A stretch of DNA of 20,363 nt from a virus. Position numbers and translations under genes: made by a program. Shown here piece by piece: positions 383 to 19,652 of this stretch. Position 1 is the stretch's first letter. Each line of letters starts with the position of its first letter. Location: IMG/VR virus record IMGVR_UViG_3300009414_000100, positions 1 to 20,363 of that record. One strand, written 5' to 3'. The notes beneath the pieces were generated by a model that worked only from the letters and a program-made list of their open reading frames with translations, did not search any database and was not told the origin of the DNA.

Positions 383-1261
383 ATGGCGCAGACGGCGACG
401 ACGGGCAATCTGGAAAATGCCCAGAAGATCATTCTTGCGGCAAGTAGGTATACGGAGGAGCATAACGCTCCTGCGCTGGCGTTGATCGAGCAGTTTAGCC
501 TTCCGAAGGGGGCAAAGCAGGTCACCGTCCCCAAGGTTGGCCAGATGTCCATGTCTGACCTCGTAGACGGCCAAGATATTATTGACGAGGAAGACATCGG
601 CATGACCACGGTTGATCTCACGGCGAGCGAGGTTGGCGCTAAGGTTATCCTCACTGACAAGCTGGTCCGGCAGGCCGCCGACAACGTCTTCTCCATGATA
701 GGAAGGCAGCTTGGTGACGGCATGGCGAGAAAAAAAGACACGGACGTAATTGCCCTGTGGCCTAACCTTAATGATGGCACGATCTTATCTGCGGATAACC
801 AGACATTCTCTACGGCGAATGTTCATGCCGCTATAAGTAGGGCGAAGGCCAATAAGTTTGGAAGCCAGCTTTACATAATTCATCACCCAAACGCGGTTGC
901 GGAACTTTCTAAGGCATCGGCTACAACTGCCGACACTGCTGCCGCTGCTGGACTTACGAGCGGTTGGAGCGTCGATCTGTTGCAGAACTTCTACAGCGGG
1001 CTCCGCCCCATCAACGGCGTCAGCATTTTTGAGGACGGGAATATCGCAAAGATTGGCACCACGGACTCGGGATATGGCGTTATCGCTGACAAGACGGCCA
1101 TGGCGGCCCTTACCAGCGTAGACACGAGGACTGAGCGACAGCGCGACGCCTCTCTCAGGGCCACGGAACTGGTAATGACCGCAGACTACGGTGTGTTTGA
1201 GCTAGACGACAGCCGGGGCGCAGCGTTCAGGGCAGAGATTGGCGACCTTGCCTTCTCGTAG
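383..1261 (+). CDS. Major capsid protein (HK97-fold type)
   Basis: This 292-residue protein builds the icosahedral head. It starts at ATG 383 after the SD AGGAGG at 371-376. The N-terminal part (about 1-45) is helical; residues about 48-95 contain beta strands and an acidic loop (DLVDGQDIIDEEDIG) followed by 'TASEVGAKVILTDKLVRQAAD', the type of segment that precedes the spine helix in P22/N4-like coat proteins. The C-terminus (about 225-292) has the usual 'ELVMTADYGVFELDD' strand. There is no N-terminal delta domain, which fits a separate scaffold gene just upstream. The family is recognised by pattern and gene order; no alignment was run. Confidence 0.8.
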   Translation: MAQTATTGNLENAQKIILAASRYTEEHNAPALALIEQFSLPKGAKQVTVPKVGQMSMSDLVDGQDIIDEEDIGMTTVDLTASEVGAKVILTDKLVRQAADNVFSMIGRQLGDGMARKKDTDVIALWPNLNDGTILSADNQTFSTANVHAAISRAKANKFGSQLYIIHHPNAVAELSKASATTADTAAAAGLTSGWSVDLLQNFYSGLRPINGVSIFEDGNIAKIGTTDSGYGVIADKTAMAALTSVDTRTERQRDASLRATELVMTADYGVFELDDSRGAAFRAEIGDLAFS

Positions 1262-4571: not shown

Positions 4572-6499
4572 TGGCCGCCAAGGTAGAGAGCCCTAACGAG
4601 ATTAGCCTGAACGGGGTATTCTACCCTATCGCCAGGCCTGTCCAGAGCGTACTCGCTTCCTTATACCCCTCCAAGGTCGTCATAGGCGACACCACCAAGG
4701 ACAGCCAGGCCCGCACCTCCGTTATTGCGTGGTCGGACTGGCGTGGAGGGATAGGCGTCAACCGCATGGAACACGGCGGAGACGTTAACCGTGCGTGGTG
4801 GAGTACCCTCCAGCTACGCTATAAGAACCACCTGATCCTGCCTGGGCTGGACAACGACGCTGCGGCCAATGGCACCGCCACCAGCCTAACAGGCCCTACG
4901 ATAGGCGCTATCGCAGAGTACGCGAATGCTGTGTATGTGGCCTGGAACGGCTCTATATCCCAAGACGCCAAGGTATACCTGTACAACAATACGTCCGACG
5001 CCTGGGGCTCGGCTCTAGCTACGCCTAGCGACCAGGTTACGGATACCGTAACGTGGCGCACCTTGGCCTCAGAGACATTCCTGATCTTCGCCCACTACGA
5101 TACCAACGGATCGGGCTACACCCGGTTTGATGGCTCTACGTGGACGGAGGACGCCTTTGACACACAGTATGTGGCGGTCTGGGACGACCGTCTCTGGGGC
5201 ATAAGCTATGCAGGGCAGCTATGGTACTCAATCGTAGCTGGCACCGAGGTGACCGACGCCAAGCTGCCCCTGCCTCCTGGCTCTGTTACTGCTCTATTTG
5301 TGGCCCGAGACGCTGGCGGTGAGCCGATTATCTATGCGGCCACCAAGAAGGGGTTGTTTGCCCACGATGCCGCAAACTCTCAGTTTGTGCAGACGGAGCT
5401 GACCCTGCCCAATCATCCCTTTGCTGGTCGGGGCACGATCAGATGGCGCGACAGTATCTACATGCCTGCGGGGCTGGGGCTGTACAGGTATATCAACCAG
5501 GCTGGCGGGGCCGTCCTGACCATCGCAGGGCCTGACCGCGATGACGGGCTCCCAGCCGACAACCGAGGCACCATCAAGTACATGAGCGGCTCTCACAACG
5601 AGCTGTTCGCTGGCGTGGACTCCTCCACGGCTGCAAAGATAGTATCCTCTAGCTCCTTGCCGTATCAGTGGCAGAGCCACCAGGGGTCTACGGTAATTGA
5701 TGCGGACACAGGCTACTCATCTATCCTGGGGTATAACGAGCTAGGCTGGGAAACTAAGTGGGCAGCCACCACCGTAGGCAAGAGCATTCAGCATATGCTG
5801 GTCAGTGACGCCTACAGTGAGTACCGTCTCTGGTGGGGGTTCGACGGCGAGATCAAGTTTATGAAGATCCCGTCGGACATCATCAACCCCTCCTTTGTGT
5901 CGGACTTTGAGTTTCGGGTCAGCGGAACACATGAGACGCCCTGGTTCAACGCGGGCCAGAGCGAGGTCGATAAGCTGGCACTCAAGCTGCGGACCGAGGT
6001 GCAGGACGCCAGCAGCACCGAGACGGTGACCGTCTCGTATGCCACAGATTACAGTGAGAGCTATACGTCGGCGGGGTCGGCTATTACCTCAGATGGCATC
6101 ACCACCTACACGTTTGGCTCCAAGGCGGGCACCACGTTCCGGGCCATCAAGTTCAAGGTTGCGCTGGCTCGGACAACGAACACATCGACGGCTAACTACA
6201 AGAAGCTGACCCCAGACATGGTTAGCCTGACCCTCGAGTGGCGAAAGAAGCTGCCGGCTAAGTGGGGCCATCAGATTCAGATAGATCTTAGCAAGGACGA
6301 CTACAAGGGCAAGAGCCCGAAGGACTTGCGGGCCGCGCTCCTCTCCGCGATCGAGTCAACCACGCTGGTGGAGTTCACCTTCCGGGACGACTCGGGAGGC
6401 GACCGCAACTTCTACGTGGACGTTACCTCTGCTACCGGGTTGGAGTTTTCGGGCTACGACGAGCGGGGGCAGTCTACGGTCAGCTTGGTGGAACCATGA
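4571..6499 (+). CDS. Large beta-propeller-like tail ('nozzle'-like) protein
   Basis: GTG at 4571 overlaps the previous stop by one base. The 642-residue protein has no signal peptide. Repeated short beta blades with aromatic/Gly turns (DRLWGISYAGQLWYSIV, GEPIIYAATKKGLFAHD, GRGTIRWRDSIYMPAGLGLY) run through about 30-440, typical of a beta-propeller. The last 200 residues form beta sandwiches ending 'VEFTFRDDSGGDRNFYVDV', similar to C-terminal domains of phage tail components. Size, fold pattern and position after an adaptor-like gene suggest the tail nozzle of a podovirus. The role is inferred; another tail or baseplate protein is possible. Confidence 0.55.
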   Translation: MAAKVESPNEISLNGVFYPIARPVQSVLASLYPSKVVIGDTTKDSQARTSVIAWSDWRGGIGVNRMEHGGDVNRAWWSTLQLRYKNHLILPGLDNDAAANGTATSLTGPTIGAIAEYANAVYVAWNGSISQDAKVYLYNNTSDAWGSALATPSDQVTDTVTWRTLASETFLIFAHYDTNGSGYTRFDGSTWTEDAFDTQYVAVWDDRLWGISYAGQLWYSIVAGTEVTDAKLPLPPGSVTALFVARDAGGEPIIYAATKKGLFAHDAANSQFVQTELTLPNHPFAGRGTIRWRDSIYMPAGLGLYRYINQAGGAVLTIAGPDRDDGLPADNRGTIKYMSGSHNELFAGVDSSTAAKIVSSSSLPYQWQSHQGSTVIDADTGYSSILGYNELGWETKWAATTVGKSIQHMLVSDAYSEYRLWWGFDGEIKFMKIPSDIINPSFVSDFEFRVSGTHETPWFNAGQSEVDKLALKLRTEVQDASSTETVTVSYATDYSESYTSAGSAITSDGITTYTFGSKAGTTFRAIKFKVALARTTNTSTANYKKLTPDMVSLTLEWRKKLPAKWGHQIQIDLSKDDYKGKSPKDLRAALLSAIESTTLVEFTFRDDSGGDRNFYVDVTSATGLEFSGYDERGQSTVSLVEP

Positions 6500-6789
6500 T
6501 CCTTGATGTAGGCACTACAACCGTCTCTACGGCTGGTACTGAGCAGCGGATATCGAACACTGCCAACAGGGTGCTGTGGATCAAGGCCAAGGCGCTTGCG
6601 GCGAACTCGGGCATTGCCTACCTCGGGGTGTCCGACGTTACGGCGACCAATGGCTACGAGTTGTCGGCGGGCAACGAGATCGAAGTCAGCTTCAGGGAAC
6701 TGGGGGGCTCGATCGAGTTCTCGTCTATCTATGTGGATGTGGCCACTAACGGGGACAAAGTGTGCTGGGCTGTGGTGTTGGAGGGGTAA
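6496..6789 (+). CDS. Small beta-rich virion protein
   Basis: ATG 6496 overlaps the previous TGA stop (ATGA), so it is probably translated by coupling. The 97-residue product is all-beta: TTTVSTAGTEQRISNTANRV, then a Gly/Ala loop, then strands ending in VCWAVVLEG. Small beta-sandwich proteins of this type often sit among phage tail genes and may cap or decorate the tail. No specific family is recognised. Confidence 0.6.
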   Translation: MILDVGTTTVSTAGTEQRISNTANRVLWIKAKALAANSGIAYLGVSDVTATNGYELSAGNEIEVSFRELGGSIEFSSIYVDVATNGDKVCWAVVLEG

Positions 6790-6873: not shown

Positions 6874-7338
6874 ATGCCCCGAGAGCTGACCGAGGAGGAG
6901 GCGCTGGAGCGCGCCATAAAGTTCTCTGAGAGATACGTCGCGCGAGGACCCTACGAGTTTTTTCCCGATGCAGAGGTGGTTAAGCTCGTCCAACAGGGGT
7001 TGGGCGAGAACGAAAAGGCCCATGGCTACCGGTACTGCCCTTGAATGCCTCTCAGCGGCGATCCCGTGGAGGATCGCAAAAAGATCTGTCCCTGCGAGAG
7101 GCATCACGAGGACATCGAGCGTGACGGCTTCTGTATATGAATGTTCTTCGTGAGCGAAGAGTTTCTTCGCAAATACGAATCAGGGGAGGAGTTCGAGCAG
7201 ACCATCGACGAGGCGGTGCCCGTCGGCCAGGAGCTGTTCGAGCAGTCCAGCGGGAAGCGCGACCACAACCTGAAACGCCGTGAGCACTCGGGACGAAAGT
7301 CAGAAGGCACGGCCCGAGGACGGACTGGAAAGGGATAG
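6874..7338 (+). CDS. Ferredoxin-thioredoxin reductase catalytic subunit with two UGA-encoded selenocysteines
   Basis: Translated as one frame with TGA 7042-7044 and TGA 7138-7140 read as Sec (U), this gives 154 residues. Residues about 15-56 (FSERYVARGPYEFFPDAEVV, then GLGENEKAHGYRYCP) match the N-terminal half of the FTR catalytic subunit. The metal/redox motifs follow in family order: C55-P-U57, C72-P-C74, C87-I-U89, then MFFVSEEF. In characterised FTR the first and third motifs end in the active-site cysteines and the other four Cys bind the 4Fe-4S cluster, so both Sec replace exactly the redox pair. FTR passes electrons from ferredoxin to thioredoxin disulfides. ATG 6874 is the only ATG/GTG/TTG start in the open frame; its SD is weak. 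A basic low-complexity tail (about 115-154) is added. A cargo or auxiliary metabolic gene amid virion genes. The alternative, a double nonsense pseudogene, is unlikely. Confidence 0.85.
7058..7077 (+). promoter_or_regulatory. SECIS-like hairpin after the first in-frame TGA
   Basis: A perfect 7-bp stem (GCGATCC 7058-7064 with GGATCGC 7071-7077) closes the 6-nt loop CGTGGA. The stem starts 13 nt after TGA 7042-7044 and the loop 20 nt after it. Bacterial SECIS elements lie in the coding region just downstream of UGA with a short apical loop having G in the first two positions, often GU, which binds SelB; this fits. A competing, weaker fold (7048-7072) also exists. Confidence 0.7.
7154..7170 (+). 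promoter_or_regulatory. SECIS-like hairpin after the second in-frame TGA
   Basis: A perfect 7-bp stem (GCGAAGA 7154-7160 with TCTTCGC 7164-7170) closes a GTT loop, or AGTTT if the top A-U pair opens. It starts 13 nt after TGA 7138-7140, the same distance as in the first element, and both stems begin GCGA. An alternative 8-bp stem with a UGAG tetraloop (7143-7162) shares part of the sequence, so the fold needs testing. Confidence 0.7.
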
Positions 7339-7340
7339 CT

Positions 7341-7724
7341 TTGAATAACGGATACCAGGTTTATACTTCTAGCGCGACTAAGGTTCCAGAGGGCTGGCAG
7401 GGCAGCGAGGCAGCGTACAGGGCTTTTGAGGCGTTGATACGAGCGGGCAAAGAGCCCAGGAGGGATTTCAGCTATGCACCTCGCATGGAAGGCAGCGCGG
7501 CTGATTTTACGTTTGCGAACCCGCCCGACTTGGCGATGCAGGTCCAAGAGTCGTTTTATAGCCATCATAGCGGGATCGAGACTCGGGGAACGGACATGCT
7601 GGCAAAGGCCCAACTTGCCGGACGAGGCATAACGCTTATAATGTTGGAGCATGACAAGCTAATACAAGATCCCGACTGGCTCATACGAGAGGCTCTTCAA
7701 TATCGGGACCATAGCTGGGAGTAG
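7341..7724 (+). CDS. Small PD-(D/E)XK-like protein with atypical core
   Basis: TTG start at 7341, two bases after the FTR stop, with AAAGGG 7 nt upstream. The 127-residue protein has the layout of small nuclease-fold phage proteins: AADFTFANPPDLAMQVQ (about 52-68) looks like the 'PDF...(D/E)xK' core, followed by a helix and GRGITLIMLEHDKL, a strand typical of the fold. The usual acidic-x-Lys triad position reads QVQ, so cleavage activity is doubtful. It may be an inactive or structural relative. The position directly after the FTR suggests joint translation. Family assignment is tentative. Confidence 0.45.
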   Translation: MNNGYQVYTSSATKVPEGWQGSEAAYRAFEALIRAGKEPRRDFSYAPRMEGSAADFTFANPPDLAMQVQESFYSHHSGIETRGTDMLAKAQLAGRGITLIMLEHDKLIQDPDWLIREALQYRDHSWE

Positions 7725-7727
7725 GCC

Positions 7728-10397
7728 ATGGCTATAACTGACATCAAGCTATCCGGTAAGGTCTTCACCGATGCGGGCACCGCCGTTAACGGGGCTACTG
7801 TAGCCCTGCTGGAAACAGGCACATCGACGGAGGAAGCCAGCACTACTACAAACTCTAGCGGGGAATGGTCGTTCACGGAAACCTCTCTAGATGCCACATA
7901 TGATGTGAAGATTTCAGTGGGCTCTAGCGTAAGGTACATCCTCTGGTCCGACGAGATCACGGTCACGGGCCTGGATGCAGCCTCAGTGAAGATACGGGGC
8001 GTGGAGGGAGCAGCCGCCCCGCTCTATTTCTTTGCCGACCAGGCCGACGATGCGGGTGATGGCTGGAGAATACAGGCATCTGCCTCCGACACGCTGGCAA
8101 TAGGCTCCGACAAGGCCAGTGCGGGCACGATCATTGACTACCTGACGATCACCAACGGGGCCAATGCGGCGGCGTCTACAGTAACTGTGGGGGGAATCCT
8201 GGCTGTTACTACGACGTTAGATGTAAATGGCACCGCTGATTACGATGTCACAGACTATGACATCGCATCCTCCGGGGACATAGACCTAGTATCCACCAAC
8301 GATGCTGCTGCTGCTATTTATCTACGAGAGAATGCAGGCACAAGCGGGACGGTCAAAATTCATGCCGACCAAGGAACCAGCGTTGCTGAGGGCGCAGAGT
8401 CAGTAACTATCCTCTCTGATGCGGGTGGCGTGGGGGTACGCAGTACCGCCAACCTGGCCAACGCCGTAAACATCACGGTGGACGGCGGTAGCACCTCTAG
8501 CATGACCCTCTTTAATGACCAAGGAACCTCTGTTACTGAAGGGGCTGCATCAATACAGCTTCTATCAGATGATGGAGGCATTGGGATTAAGTCAACTGCG
8601 AACCTTGCTAGTGCAATCCTGCTAACTGCTGATGGAGGAACATCGGAGACAATCAAGATTCATGCCGACCGAGGTACAAGTGAAAGCTCTATACAACTTC
8701 TCTCAGATGCCGGCGGTGTCGATATCAACGCTGCCACAGGGAAGGATGTGGACATAGCTGGCGGCACCGTTAACCTAACTTCTTCTGACGATGCGGCTTC
8801 GGCTATCTATGTTAGGGCCAATGCTGGTACGAGTGAGACTATTAAAGTTCATGCAGACCAAGGCACCTCAGAGAGTTCCATCCAGCTTCTATCAGACGCT
8901 GGTGGCGTAGACATAGATGCCGCTACAGGCAAGGACGTAGATATTGCCGGGGGTACTGTTAACCTAACCTCCTCTGATAATGCCGCTTCAGCTATCTACT
9001 TGAGGGCTAATGCAGGCACTAGCGAGACCATTAAGATACACGCTGATCAAGGCACCGGCACTGGCTCTATATCAGCCGTATCAGATGTAGGTGGGATAAC
9101 GCTGGATGCAGGGCTGGATATAGTCCTCTCCGCTGACGGCGGCAACGTCACTATGGATGACGGTACATCTACCATCTTTGACTTCAATGTAGACGACACA
9201 ACCCTGACGATACATGACGACCAGGATACTGGTGACACGGCTGTCATCACGATGGCCCAACACGGGGCATTGAGCATCGTGACCACTGATGACGATGCAG
9301 CAGCAGCTAATATTCAGATAACAGCGGATGGCACGGCTGAATTGGCAGGCACTACTGTCACCTTAGATTCTGCTGCCGACATAGAGCTAGAGGCAACTGA
9401 TGACATCAATATCCCTGTCGATGTTGGGCTCACCTTTGGTGATGATGGAGAGAAGATCGAGGGTGATGGTACTGATCTAACAATCAGTGGGAACATAATA
9501 AACCTAAGCGGTGCGGTTACCGCGACGGGGATTCTCAAGACTGAGGACTCAACAGCAGCGACAAGCACCACTGATGGCTCTCTCCAGACAGGCGGGGGCC
9601 TATCAGTAGCGGGGGATGCCATCATCGGGGATGATCTCAAACTACTGTCTGATAGTGCGGTGTTTGGAATGGGTGTGGATAGTGACTTCACGATCACCCA
9701 TGATGGTTCAGGGGCGGCAGTAATAGATATAGGGGGCTCAGGGGGCAGCATCACCAATGTCGGAGCGTCTGGTAATGACTGGACGTCATCGAGTCTAACG
9801 TTTGCCGCCGCCTCCAGCGTCAAGACTTCCGCCGGCATCTTGACCATTGACGGGGACGATGGTTTGCTCCTCAAGACCACTGGTAGCACAGGCTCGTACA
9901 TCACCCGTGGCACGTACCATATCTCCCAGGTCGTGACGAAGACGAGTATCGCTGACAATAGCGCCACAGCCGTCTTTACTATCACAACGACAGACGGGTT
10001 GGGGAATATTGACGGCGGTGGCTATGCCTGTCATGTCCGTGCCTTGGTCGGACATTCACTCAACGCGACAGCGTCCGACTTCCAAGCTGCGAGGTCGTTC
10101 CAGGCCCACTTCGCCCGCGCTATGAGTACAGACGGAGCGCAGGGGAACTCCTCGGCGGTGGCCGAGATCGCCGAGTCGGCATCGGGCGTCGCATATGCTG
10201 GAAACGCATCGAGGAGGGATATTGGCACAATCACTATGACTACCGCGGACACGAGCGAATACGTTCAGACGGTATCGTTCACGGTAGACCTCACAAACCC
10301 CGGCGCTGGCGGATCGATTGGGACGGCTGAAGTTATTGCCGAAGTGGATTTGATTTACTACGGATTTCAGGTCGCGCCGGTCATAGCGGTAGCGTAA
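7728..10397 (+). CDS. Repetitive tail fibre protein
   Basis: ATG 7728 with GGGAGTAGG upstream; 889 residues. Residues about 3-85 form a transthyretin/carboxypeptidase-regulatory-like beta sandwich (SGKVFTDAGTAVNGATVALL), probably an attachment domain. Residues about 185-560 are Ala/Gly/Ser/Thr/Asp-rich tandem beta repeats ('HADQGTS...LLSDAGGVDI'), expected to make a long trimeric shaft. Residues about 735-889 form a terminal beta sandwich (ARSFQAHFARAM...VIAEVDLIYYGF) seen in marine phage fibres, likely the tip. It probably binds the host surface. No transmembrane segment or catalytic motif is seen, so depolymerase activity is not indicated. Confidence 0.75.
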   Translation: MAITDIKLSGKVFTDAGTAVNGATVALLETGTSTEEASTTTNSSGEWSFTETSLDATYDVKISVGSSVRYILWSDEITVTGLDAASVKIRGVEGAAAPLYFFADQADDAGDGWRIQASASDTLAIGSDKASAGTIIDYLTITNGANAAASTVTVGGILAVTTTLDVNGTADYDVTDYDIASSGDIDLVSTNDAAAAIYLRENAGTSGTVKIHADQGTSVAEGAESVTILSDAGGVGVRSTANLANAVNITVDGGSTSSMTLFNDQGTSVTEGAASIQLLSDDGGIGIKSTANLASAILLTADGGTSETIKIHADRGTSESSIQLLSDAGGVDINAATGKDVDIAGGTVNLTSSDDAASAIYVRANAGTSETIKVHADQGTSESSIQLLSDAGGVDIDAATGKDVDIAGGTVNLTSSDNAASAIYLRANAGTSETIKIHADQGTGTGSISAVSDVGGITLDAGLDIVLSADGGNVTMDDGTSTIFDFNVDDTTLTIHDDQDTGDTAVITMAQHGALSIVTTDDDAAAANIQITADGTAELAGTTVTLDSAADIELEATDDINIPVDVGLTFGDDGEKIEGDGTDLTISGNIINLSGAVTATGILKTEDSTAATSTTDGSLQTGGGLSVAGDAIIGDDLKLLSDSAVFGMGVDSDFTITHDGSGAAVIDIGGSGGSITNVGASGNDWTSSSLTFAAASSVKTSAGILTIDGDDGLLLKTTGSTGSYITRGTYHISQVVTKTSIADNSATAVFTITTTDGLGNIDGGGYACHVRALVGHSLNATASDFQAARSFQAHFARAMSTDGAQGNSSAVAEIAESASGVAYAGNASRRDIGTITMTTADTSEYVQTVSFTVDLTNPGAGGSIGTAEVIAEVDLIYYGFQVAPVIAVA
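8646..9023 (+). repeat. Two tandem 189-bp units in the fibre gene, conserved in protein but recoded in DNA
   Basis: Units 8646-8834 and 8835-9023 each encode 63 residues and agree at 58. Of these 58 conserved residues, I count 42 encoded by different codons and only 16 by the same codon. A partial third unit begins at 9024, and looser copies lie upstream (from about 8300). The pattern is strong protein conservation with near-saturated silent change. Confidence 0.85.
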
Positions 10398-18354: not shown

Positions 18355-18383
18355 ATTGTAGCTAATTACAGGTGTTTAGTCAA
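18355..18383 (-). promoter_or_regulatory. Strong sigma70-type promoter for the leftward operon
   Basis: On the minus strand, TTGACT (18383-18378) and TACAAT (18360-18355) are separated by exactly 17 nt, near the consensus. Transcription would start near 18347, about 55 nt before ATG 18293. The -35 box overlaps the stop codons of the methyltransferase and of the overlapping +1 ORF. It probably drives the genes from 18293 down to 12519 separately from the upstream ones. Confidence 0.75.
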
Positions 18384-19413
18384 GCATTCCCTCCTTTCTG
18401 GCTACTAAGTATGATCCAAGCAAGGCCTCCCACTGCCGGAACGACTGCGTTGCCAAGGGCGCGGAGTCGTCGGGCCACTGAGGGGGCAGGCCCATCAGGT
18501 AGGACACAAACAGCGGGTTGAGCCGAAGGCACTTGTGCGAGCAGGCGTGCCCATCCGGCGTGGTCGCCTGGTCCTGGCGGATAGAGAGGTAGAGTTCCCT
18601 CGGGCGTGATGGCTTCTTCTTCTTCGCGCCATCGAACTGCTTGTGATCTCGCGCTGCCGGCGTGGGCCAGTTCTGAGCCACCTCCCCGAGATACAGCGGC
18701 ACTGTGTCCTGGTTTGCGTTCCTCTTGCGGAATGCCGCGCTCTTCGCCATTGTTTCTGGCGATCGAGGCCGATCCAGGGCCGTCGGCGTGGGCCAGTGCG
18801 TGCCCCCCGCCTGCATAGCTAGAGGTGTCCCGCCCTGCGCGTACTTGTTCTGCCTCATGGTCGCCGAGTCCTGCGTTGGCGTACCCCATAGCCTCGTTGC
18901 GGTAGGCCAGGAAGAAGAGTCGTTGCCTCTTATGCGGAGCGCCTGTTTCTGCCGCAGTAAAGAGTCCTTCCTGAGTGCTGTAGCCCACGCCGAGAAGCTG
19001 GGGCCGGATGGTGTGGTAGTAGTGGGAGAGCATCTTTCGACTGGCGACGTTTTCCATAAAGAGAGCTGGATACCCGAGGCCTTCTGCGATCCGTGCGACT
19101 GCGGGCCACAGGTTGCGTTCGTCATCAGCTCCTCGTTGTTGGCCGGCGGTTGACCAGGGCTGGCAGGGCGGGGAGCCAGCGATGAGATCCACTCGGCCAC
19201 GCCACGGTTGAGGGTTGAAGGACGTAATGTCAGACCAGATAGGGCACGGATCGATGGAGCCGTCTGCCATGCGCGCCGCAAGGATCGAGGCGACGCCGAT
19301 TTCCCGTTCCACCATGCACACCGTTCTAGTAGGGAGGACACTTCGCAATCCGAGGTCCAGTCCTCCGATGCCCGAACAGATGCTGAGGACGTTGACGGTA
19401 CGTGCAGCCACAT
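18376..19413 (-). CDS. ORF in another frame overlapping the whole methyltransferase gene (possible overprinted protein)
   Basis: This frame has no stop for 345 codons from ATG 19413, which lies in a TAATG junction with the previous gene, like other starts of this operon, and shares the methyltransferase's SD. The C-terminal half reads WPTPTALDRP, NWPTPAARDHK and LNPLFVSYLMGLPPQWP, ending SFRQWEALLG. I recall phage proteins with repeated WPTPTA and a 'LNPxWVEWLMGxPxGW' ending; they are often annotated near methyltransferases. The N-terminal half looks unlike a protein (for example SSASVRASEDWTSD). GC-rich genes can leave open shadow frames, so coding is uncertain. Confidence 0.4.
   Translation of the reverse strand: MWLHVPSTSSASVRASEDWTSDCEVSSLLERCAWWNGKSASPRSLRRAWQTAPSIRALSGLTLRPSTLNRGVAEWISSLAPRPASPGQPPANNEELMTNATCGPQSHGSQKASGIQLSLWKTSPVERCSPTTTTPSGPSFSAWATALRKDSLLRQKQALRIRGNDSSSWPTATRLWGTPTQDSATMRQNKYAQGGTPLAMQAGGTHWPTPTALDRPRSPETMAKSAAFRKRNANQDTVPLYLGEVAQNWPTPAARDHKQFDGAKKKKPSRPRELYLSIRQDQATTPDGHACSHKCLRLNPLFVSYLMGLPPQWPDDSAPLATQSFRQWEALLGSYLVARKEGMLD
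18380..19411 (-). CDS. C5-cytosine DNA methyltransferase
   Basis: The start GTG 19411 is the in-frame start next to SD GGAGG; the longer frame runs into the preceding gene. 343 residues. Motif I SICSGIGGLDLG (about 10-21), motif IV GSPPCQPWS with catalytic Cys83, ENV (about 120-122), motif VIII PHKRQRLFFLA, and motif X LRALGNAVVPAV near the end. The target-recognition region (about 175-300) is rich in 'LAHADG'-like repeats. It adds methyl groups to cytosine in DNA, probably protecting phage DNA from host restriction. The whole gene is overlapped by an open +1 frame (see the next entry). Confidence 0.9.
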   Translation of the reverse strand: MAARTVNVLSICSGIGGLDLGLRSVLPTRTVCMVEREIGVASILAARMADGSIDPCPIWSDITSFNPQPWRGRVDLIAGSPPCQPWSTAGQQRGADDERNLWPAVARIAEGLGYPALFMENVASRKMLSHYYHTIRPQLLGVGYSTQEGLFTAAETGAPHKRQRLFFLAYRNEAMGYANAGLGDHEAEQVRAGRDTSSYAGGGHALAHADGPGSASIARNNGEERGIPQEERKPGHSAAVSRGGGSELAHAGSARSQAVRWREEEEAITPEGTLPLYPPGPGDHAGWARLLAQVPSAQPAVCVLPDGPAPSVARRLRALGNAVVPAVGGLAWIILSSQKGGNA

Positions 19414-19652
19414 TATTTCCTCCAATCAAAGGGGCTTGTGAGGTCCCGCTCACCCATATCGTGAGCAAGGTCGATGGTATACAGGTCCGAGTGCGCCCAC
19501 TCTGTGATTCCACAGTCGCCACATTCCCAGGCGGCCAGCTTGCCGCAGCGAGGGCAGACGGTGAGAGGCGTGTTGTCATCAGCTTCTATCCCGCAACAAC
19601 GCGAGATAGGATTAGACTCTGACTCTGAGTTGGTTGTGCAAGTGTGTGTCAT
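19413..19652 (-). CDS. Small zinc-ribbon protein (79 aa)
   Basis: ATG 19652 overlaps the previous stop (ATGA) and follows GAGGAGG. CPRC at about 33-36 and CGDC at about 44-47 make a zinc ribbon; additional Cys occur near the N-terminus (RCCG). Its TAA stop overlaps the ATG of the following overlapping frame. Function unknown; such proteins are common in phage early regions. Confidence 0.65.
   Translation of the reverse strand: MTHTCTTNSESESNPISRCCGIEADDNTPLTVCPRCGKLAAWECGDCGITEWAHSDLYTIDLAHDMGERDLTSPFDWRK

Follow-up and report, generated by a model that had tools for sequence, protein, structure and literature searches.

The window, meaning the whole 20,363-nucleotide stretch analysed here, belongs to a deep-sea bacterial virus and encodes a phage major capsid protein, an exonuclease and a DNA methyltransferase. 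In its tail/late module, a ftrB-like frame carrying two in-frame TGA codons lies between two conserved phage genes. The features discussed below are as follows.

383..1261, + strand: major capsid protein (tailed-phage context)
6496..6789, + strand: conserved phage gene directly upstream of the insertion
6874..7338, + strand: ftrB-like gene, predicted double-selenocysteine (Sec) ferredoxin-thioredoxin reductase (FTR) catalytic subunit, 154 aa with two TGA read through
7036..7137, + strand: codons of the four cluster cysteines C55, C72, C74 and C87, all TGC or TGT
7042..7044, + strand: TGA, predicted Sec57, opposite Cys57 of Synechocystis FTR in the alignment; TGA in 58/58 cellular homologues
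7058..7077, + strand: predicted bacterial SECIS hairpin 1, GCGAUCC-CGUGGA-GGAUCGC (7-bp stem, 6-nt loop CGUGGA, -10.6 kcal/mol)
7138..7140, + strand: TGA, predicted Sec89, opposite Cys87 of Synechocystis FTR in the alignment; TGA in 58/58 cellular homologues
7154..7170, + strand: predicted bacterial SECIS hairpin 2, GCGAAGA-GUU-UCUUCGC (7-bp stem, loop GUU, -7.7 kcal/mol)
7341..7724, + strand: conserved phage gene directly downstream of the insertion; adjoins the 6496-6789 homologue in FTR-less relatives

The ftrB-like frame and its place in the phage genome

The frame runs from the ATG at 6874 to the TAG at 7336-7338, is interrupted only by the TGA codons at 7042-7044 and 7138-7140, and contains no frameshift. 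Read through, it yields a product of 154 residues with the motifs CPU-CPC-CIU. A first-pass annotation, made from the letters alone, had placed the start, both TGAs and the TAG at these same coordinates. It was also right about the motif order, about the TGC or TGT codons at the four cluster cysteines, and about the fragments of 56, 31 and 65 residues that standard gene calling would produce.

Two other viral records, IMGVR_UViG_3300025267_000081 and IMGVR_UViG_3300008218_001355, carry the same 601 bp around the gene without a single difference. The window shares 99.97% identity with the larger of the two (29 kb) across 18 kb, and 99.99% with the smaller across 10 kb. Since the three records agree, an assembly error at both TGA sites, three times over, is not credible. 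Together with the TGAs of 58 cellular homologues, this rules out the sequencing error that the first-pass annotation had named as a possible source of the two codons.

That annotation also held that the gene is carried by a virus, and the record is indeed viral: besides the capsid and exonuclease genes of the window, the 29-kb relative has both the large and the small terminase subunit. With the capsid as query, at least 597 related viral stretches were found. Homologues of the two flanking genes occur in about 70 related phage loci; among the 54 of these that were listed, they nearly always sit close together, and FTR does not separate them. In one related locus (L203, 3111-3629) another gene, about 172 aa long and nuclease-like by eye, occupies the FTR slot, and two others (L204, L205) show an equally large gap. 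Hence, the FTR gene was inserted by itself into a slot of variable content, which looks like a site for accessory genes.

Two further observations concern the phage genome. Imperfect internal repeats (about 74% identical) lie at 8646-9056 of the window, inside an 889-aa fibre-like protein (7728-10397). The C5 DNA methyltransferase has 399 aa in the window (18380-19579) and 355 aa in a nearly identical relative (L183, 10215-11282), the two differing in an in-frame middle segment.

Family membership and two SECIS hairpins

The read-through product matches the Pfam family of the FTR catalytic chain (PF02943, E=1.6e-21) and the NCBIfam model NF041072, "FtrB family double-selenoprotein" (FtrB_double_U), with 229.5 bits for a cut-off of 160 (E=5.6e-69); with such E values the match is not due to chance. 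The NF041072 match is full length (1-121/121), has no net gap and covers both Sec positions. In a 28-member profile alignment, the TGA codons fall opposite Cys57 and Cys87 of Synechocystis FTR (1dj7), and the remaining four cysteines opposite its Cys55, 74, 76 and 85, chain numbers being counted off the printed alignment. Cys57 and Cys87 are the established redox pair of that enzyme. The phage protein thus keeps all six FTR motif positions, namely the four cluster cysteines and the redox pair, the latter as predicted Sec. The placement of the TGAs on the redox pair, proposed in the first-pass annotation, is therefore borne out by alignment to FTR families, and in-frame TGA at both redox positions is also what defines NF041072. 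An AlphaFold model of the protein was poor (pLDDT 62), too weak for a fold search.

A hairpin follows each TGA, and the loop of each begins 20 nt past it. Published limits for bacterial SECIS elements are a loop of 3-9 nt with a G in the first two positions, a stem of 4-16 bp, a spacing of 16-37 nt and a minimum free energy of -7.5 kcal/mol or lower (PMC13188914, Fig. 2), and both hairpins lie within them. In a synonymous-site test computed from cellular sequences only, strong conservation was found at 9 of the 14 codons at +5 to +11 after the TGAs versus 0 of 76 elsewhere (Fisher p=2.8e-9); along the rest of the gene, synonymous codon choice is free in the cellular homologues. The constrained bases are those that form the two hairpins, and in both hairpins the conserved bases are kept by the phage copy. 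For hairpin 2, all alignment cells (100%) are paired, and there are two compensatory changes (in L126 and L148), each accompanied by an amino-acid change. For hairpin 1, 95.7% of cells are paired, with mismatches at two pairs (11/280) and one more at the base pair, and no covariation was seen among cellular homologues. Thermodynamic scoring of long RNA windows was not decisive; the assignment as SECIS rests on the synonymous-site test and on these minimal hairpins.

Cellular relatives, decoding machinery and host

Around 85,000 prokaryote species genomes were searched with a pattern requiring TGA at both positions and the spacing of the phage protein. It matched 67 stretches, 58 of them true homologues; the other nine were unrelated chance frames and were rejected. 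All 58 homologues have TGA at both codons, and every one is from a record bearing the name SAR202, Chloroflexi/Chloroflexota or Dehalococcoidia. Among 197 genomes from the order of one carrier, 40 contain the NF041072 family above its cut-off, with exactly two TGA in all 40. Homologues with cysteine at the two codons, for which the first-pass annotation had suggested a search, also exist, including FTR relatives without TGA in Chloroflexota. Two Chloroflexota relatives have a single in-frame TGA, one at the third motif (CPC-CPC-CHU; L330, G421:C37) and one at the first (CPU-CPC-CRC; L336, G041:C292), so that either redox position can apparently be Sec alone. In another bacterial genome (L337, G379:C97 1700-2700), the double-Sec ftrB match is in two pieces and may represent a broken gene.

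SelB is above cut-off in 21 of 24 carrier genomes, and the tRNA-Sec model in 23 of the 24. In most of these 23 the best tRNA-Sec score is 62-73 bits, which lies above the level of about 54 bits where, on our reading, other tRNAs appear to cross-match the model. The selenocysteine machinery, whose absence from the host would have spoken against the first-pass proposal, is thus present in most cellular carriers; the phage's own host is a deduction, set out below. The two related virus records gave no match to SelB or tRNA-Sec, and scans of the window and of the 29-kb relative for tRNAs and Rfam families found none; these records may be genome fragments. On the combined evidence from frame, family, hairpins and carriers, the two in-frame TGAs almost certainly encode selenocysteine.

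A tree of the proteins places the viral copy next to a cellular sequence (L116, support 99/92), nested in the cellular double-Sec clade; the best identity to a cellular homologue is 90% at the amino-acid and 82% at the nucleotide level. The dN/dS to host copies is about 0.05 where dS is measurable, dS being saturated elsewhere. Against the nearest host copy, dS is about 1.4 or at saturation; the donor is therefore either ancient or missing from the genomes sampled, and the low dN/dS spans the whole path rather than the phage branch alone.

Capsid homologues with 50-59% identity are found in 5 of the 197 genomes of the carrier's order, whereas for named phages the capsid identity is only about 30%. 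One of the five genomes, of the SAR202 order, has its homologue in a prophage-like block (L342-L343; G467:C34, about 212-222 kb) of a 253-kb contig. The capsid and the syntenic terminase and tail genes of the block are related to those of the phage, and bacterial genes (DnaG, TrkH, phosphoglucomutase) flank it on either side. We read this block as a related prophage. Taken together, these matches suggest that the phage host likely belongs to this SAR202/Dehalococcoidia order.

Among viral contigs, the fixed-spacing double-TGA pattern was found in this virus only, and a close search for FTR relatives likewise returned this lineage only. Because the three FTR-holding records are nearly one virus, viral carriage rests on one lineage. 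A pattern allowing Sec or Cys added one convincing Cys FTR, an all-Cys protein of identical motif spacing, encoded on a 14-kb contig classified as viral (L167, IMGVR_UViG_3300048804_000049). Variable-gap TGA patterns in viral contigs gave mostly cysteine-rich chance frames, which were discarded. No FTR relative was found among 50,697 phage records, and no PHROG matched.

Proposed function and comparison with known systems

The bacterial-clade origin of the gene, the Sec machinery of the carriers, its absence from the virus records and the clean insertion together point to a host-acquired selenoprotein translated by host machinery. It is thus very probable that this tailed phage carries a double-Sec FTR of the NF041072 family, acquired from a Sec-decoding chloroflexotal host and decoded by that host's apparatus. 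The double-Sec FTR proposed in the first-pass annotation is supported by the family model, the alignment of the redox pair, the two hairpins under synonymous constraint and the carriers' Sec machinery.

Other readings were weighed. The product could be a real double-Sec protein that no longer works as an FTR, having a structural or regulatory role in the phage or using another electron donor or acceptor. Its location in the tail/late module would suit such a role, and in the host gene neighbourhoods examined no shared operon partner names a substrate; yet the six motif positions and the family match are kept under strong purifying selection, which makes a change of function unlikely. It is much less plausible that the gene is a decayed host fragment with two genuine stops and three non-functional pieces, as the split made by a gene caller and its occurrence in one viral lineage might suggest. 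This reading is largely refuted by the presence of both TGAs in 58 homologues from distinct genomes, the dN/dS to hosts, the SECIS bases kept by the virus, and a frame free of frameshifts and further stops. Even though the nearest relatives of the gene are all bacterial, a chimaeric or bacterial contig with the gene outside the virus is highly improbable, given that three assemblies agree, that about 70 related viral loci have the flanking phage genes side by side, and that capsid, exonuclease and, in the 29-kb relative, terminase genes are present. Finally, an altered code in phage or host, reading TGA as Trp, Cys or another residue, could account for in-frame TGAs at positions that are Cys in relatives, but is scarcely conceivable with SelB and tRNA-Sec in the carriers, a constrained hairpin after each TGA, and several other phage genes that simply end at a TGA, often within an ATGA that overlaps the next start codon; the two ftrB TGAs are thus recoded locally by context.

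In established FTR chemistry, electrons from ferredoxin reach the redox pair by way of the 4Fe-4S cluster; of the two residues, the outer one attacks the target disulphide and the inner one is held at the cluster. For the host-acquired double-Sec FTR, the following course can be proposed. A phage ancestor would have taken the gene from a Sec-decoding host of the SAR202/Dehalococcoidia group of Chloroflexota, as a single accessory gene entering between two conserved genes of the tail/late module. At each TGA, the SECIS hairpin would recruit host SelB with host Sec-tRNA-Sec. Electrons would arrive one at a time from reduced ferredoxin via the cluster held by the four cysteines, and Sec57, as outer nucleophile, with Sec89, as its cluster-side partner, would reduce thioredoxin or a substrate disulphide. 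Sec would be the more nucleophilic residue and the more readily reduced back after oxidation. Ferredoxin-driven thiol reduction may in this way be topped up during infection, possibly to the benefit of the phage through thioredoxin for deoxynucleotide synthesis or through protection from oxidation. We infer that the gene is expressed, that selenium is incorporated, that the product is catalytically active and that the phage profits. Host-derived and located inside a verified viral genome, the gene is a probable viral auxiliary metabolic gene, and would as such alter host metabolism during infection.

Ocean metagenomes had already yielded a double-Sec FTR, with Sec at both redox positions, in 2008 (PMC2398784), and a 2026 review lists it with two Sec (PMC13188914). 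With this report and an NCBIfam model of its own, the double-Sec FTR itself is not new. The first-pass statement that no double-Sec viral FTR had been described therefore holds for the viral part only: we found no precedent for a virus-borne form in the openly searchable literature, a scope that does not prove priority. The papers found on viral selenoproteins deal with viruses of people and animals, none with a phage. According to a marine survey, RNR II, plastocyanin and Cu-Zn SOD were the exceptions among the families examined, the others being scarcely or not at all represented in viral sequences (PMC9402790). The new part thus appears to be carriage by a phage, the family being known from marine SAR202-type Chloroflexota. 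On balance, we lean towards seeing in this gene a phage selenoprotein that is an accessory metabolic gene, with two host-decoded Sec and two SECIS, and with a Sec-Sec pair beside an iron-sulfur cluster. If so, genes that rely on the host to decode selenocysteine can be carried by phages, where standard viral gene calling breaks them up and overlooks them, and a large deep-ocean phage group would be tied to Sec-decoding SAR202-type Chloroflexota. It also suggests that ferredoxin-driven thiol reduction matters in infection of such a host, and a natural Sec-Sec FTR would offer a test case for selenium's role at an iron-sulfur active site.

Compared with the cyanobacterial and chloroplast FTR catalytic chain (1dj7, the 2pu9 series, 7bzk; PF02943), the phage protein has the same CPC-CPC-CxC motif order, its U positions aligning with Cys57 and Cys87. 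However, those chains have Cys throughout, spacers of 16 and 8 residues versus 14 and 12 in the phage protein, and work with a variable chain. Of the proteins with a solved structure, those nearest in sequence are 4tpu (in the PDB as "Rubredoxin") and 7pwe (FTR subunit B); they have nearly equal motif spacing but, unlike the phage protein, Cys at all six positions. The double-Sec FTR of the Global Ocean Sampling (GOS) data (JCVI_READ_1093012271142; PMC2398784) likewise has two predicted Sec at the redox-active cysteines of the catalytic subunit. That sequence is one read whose origin is unknown; it was placed with COG4802 and reported with no viral context, whereas the present gene lies in a phage genome. 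Similarly, the NF041072 members found here (58) are all from cellular Chloroflexota, while the gene described in this work is carried by a tailed phage.
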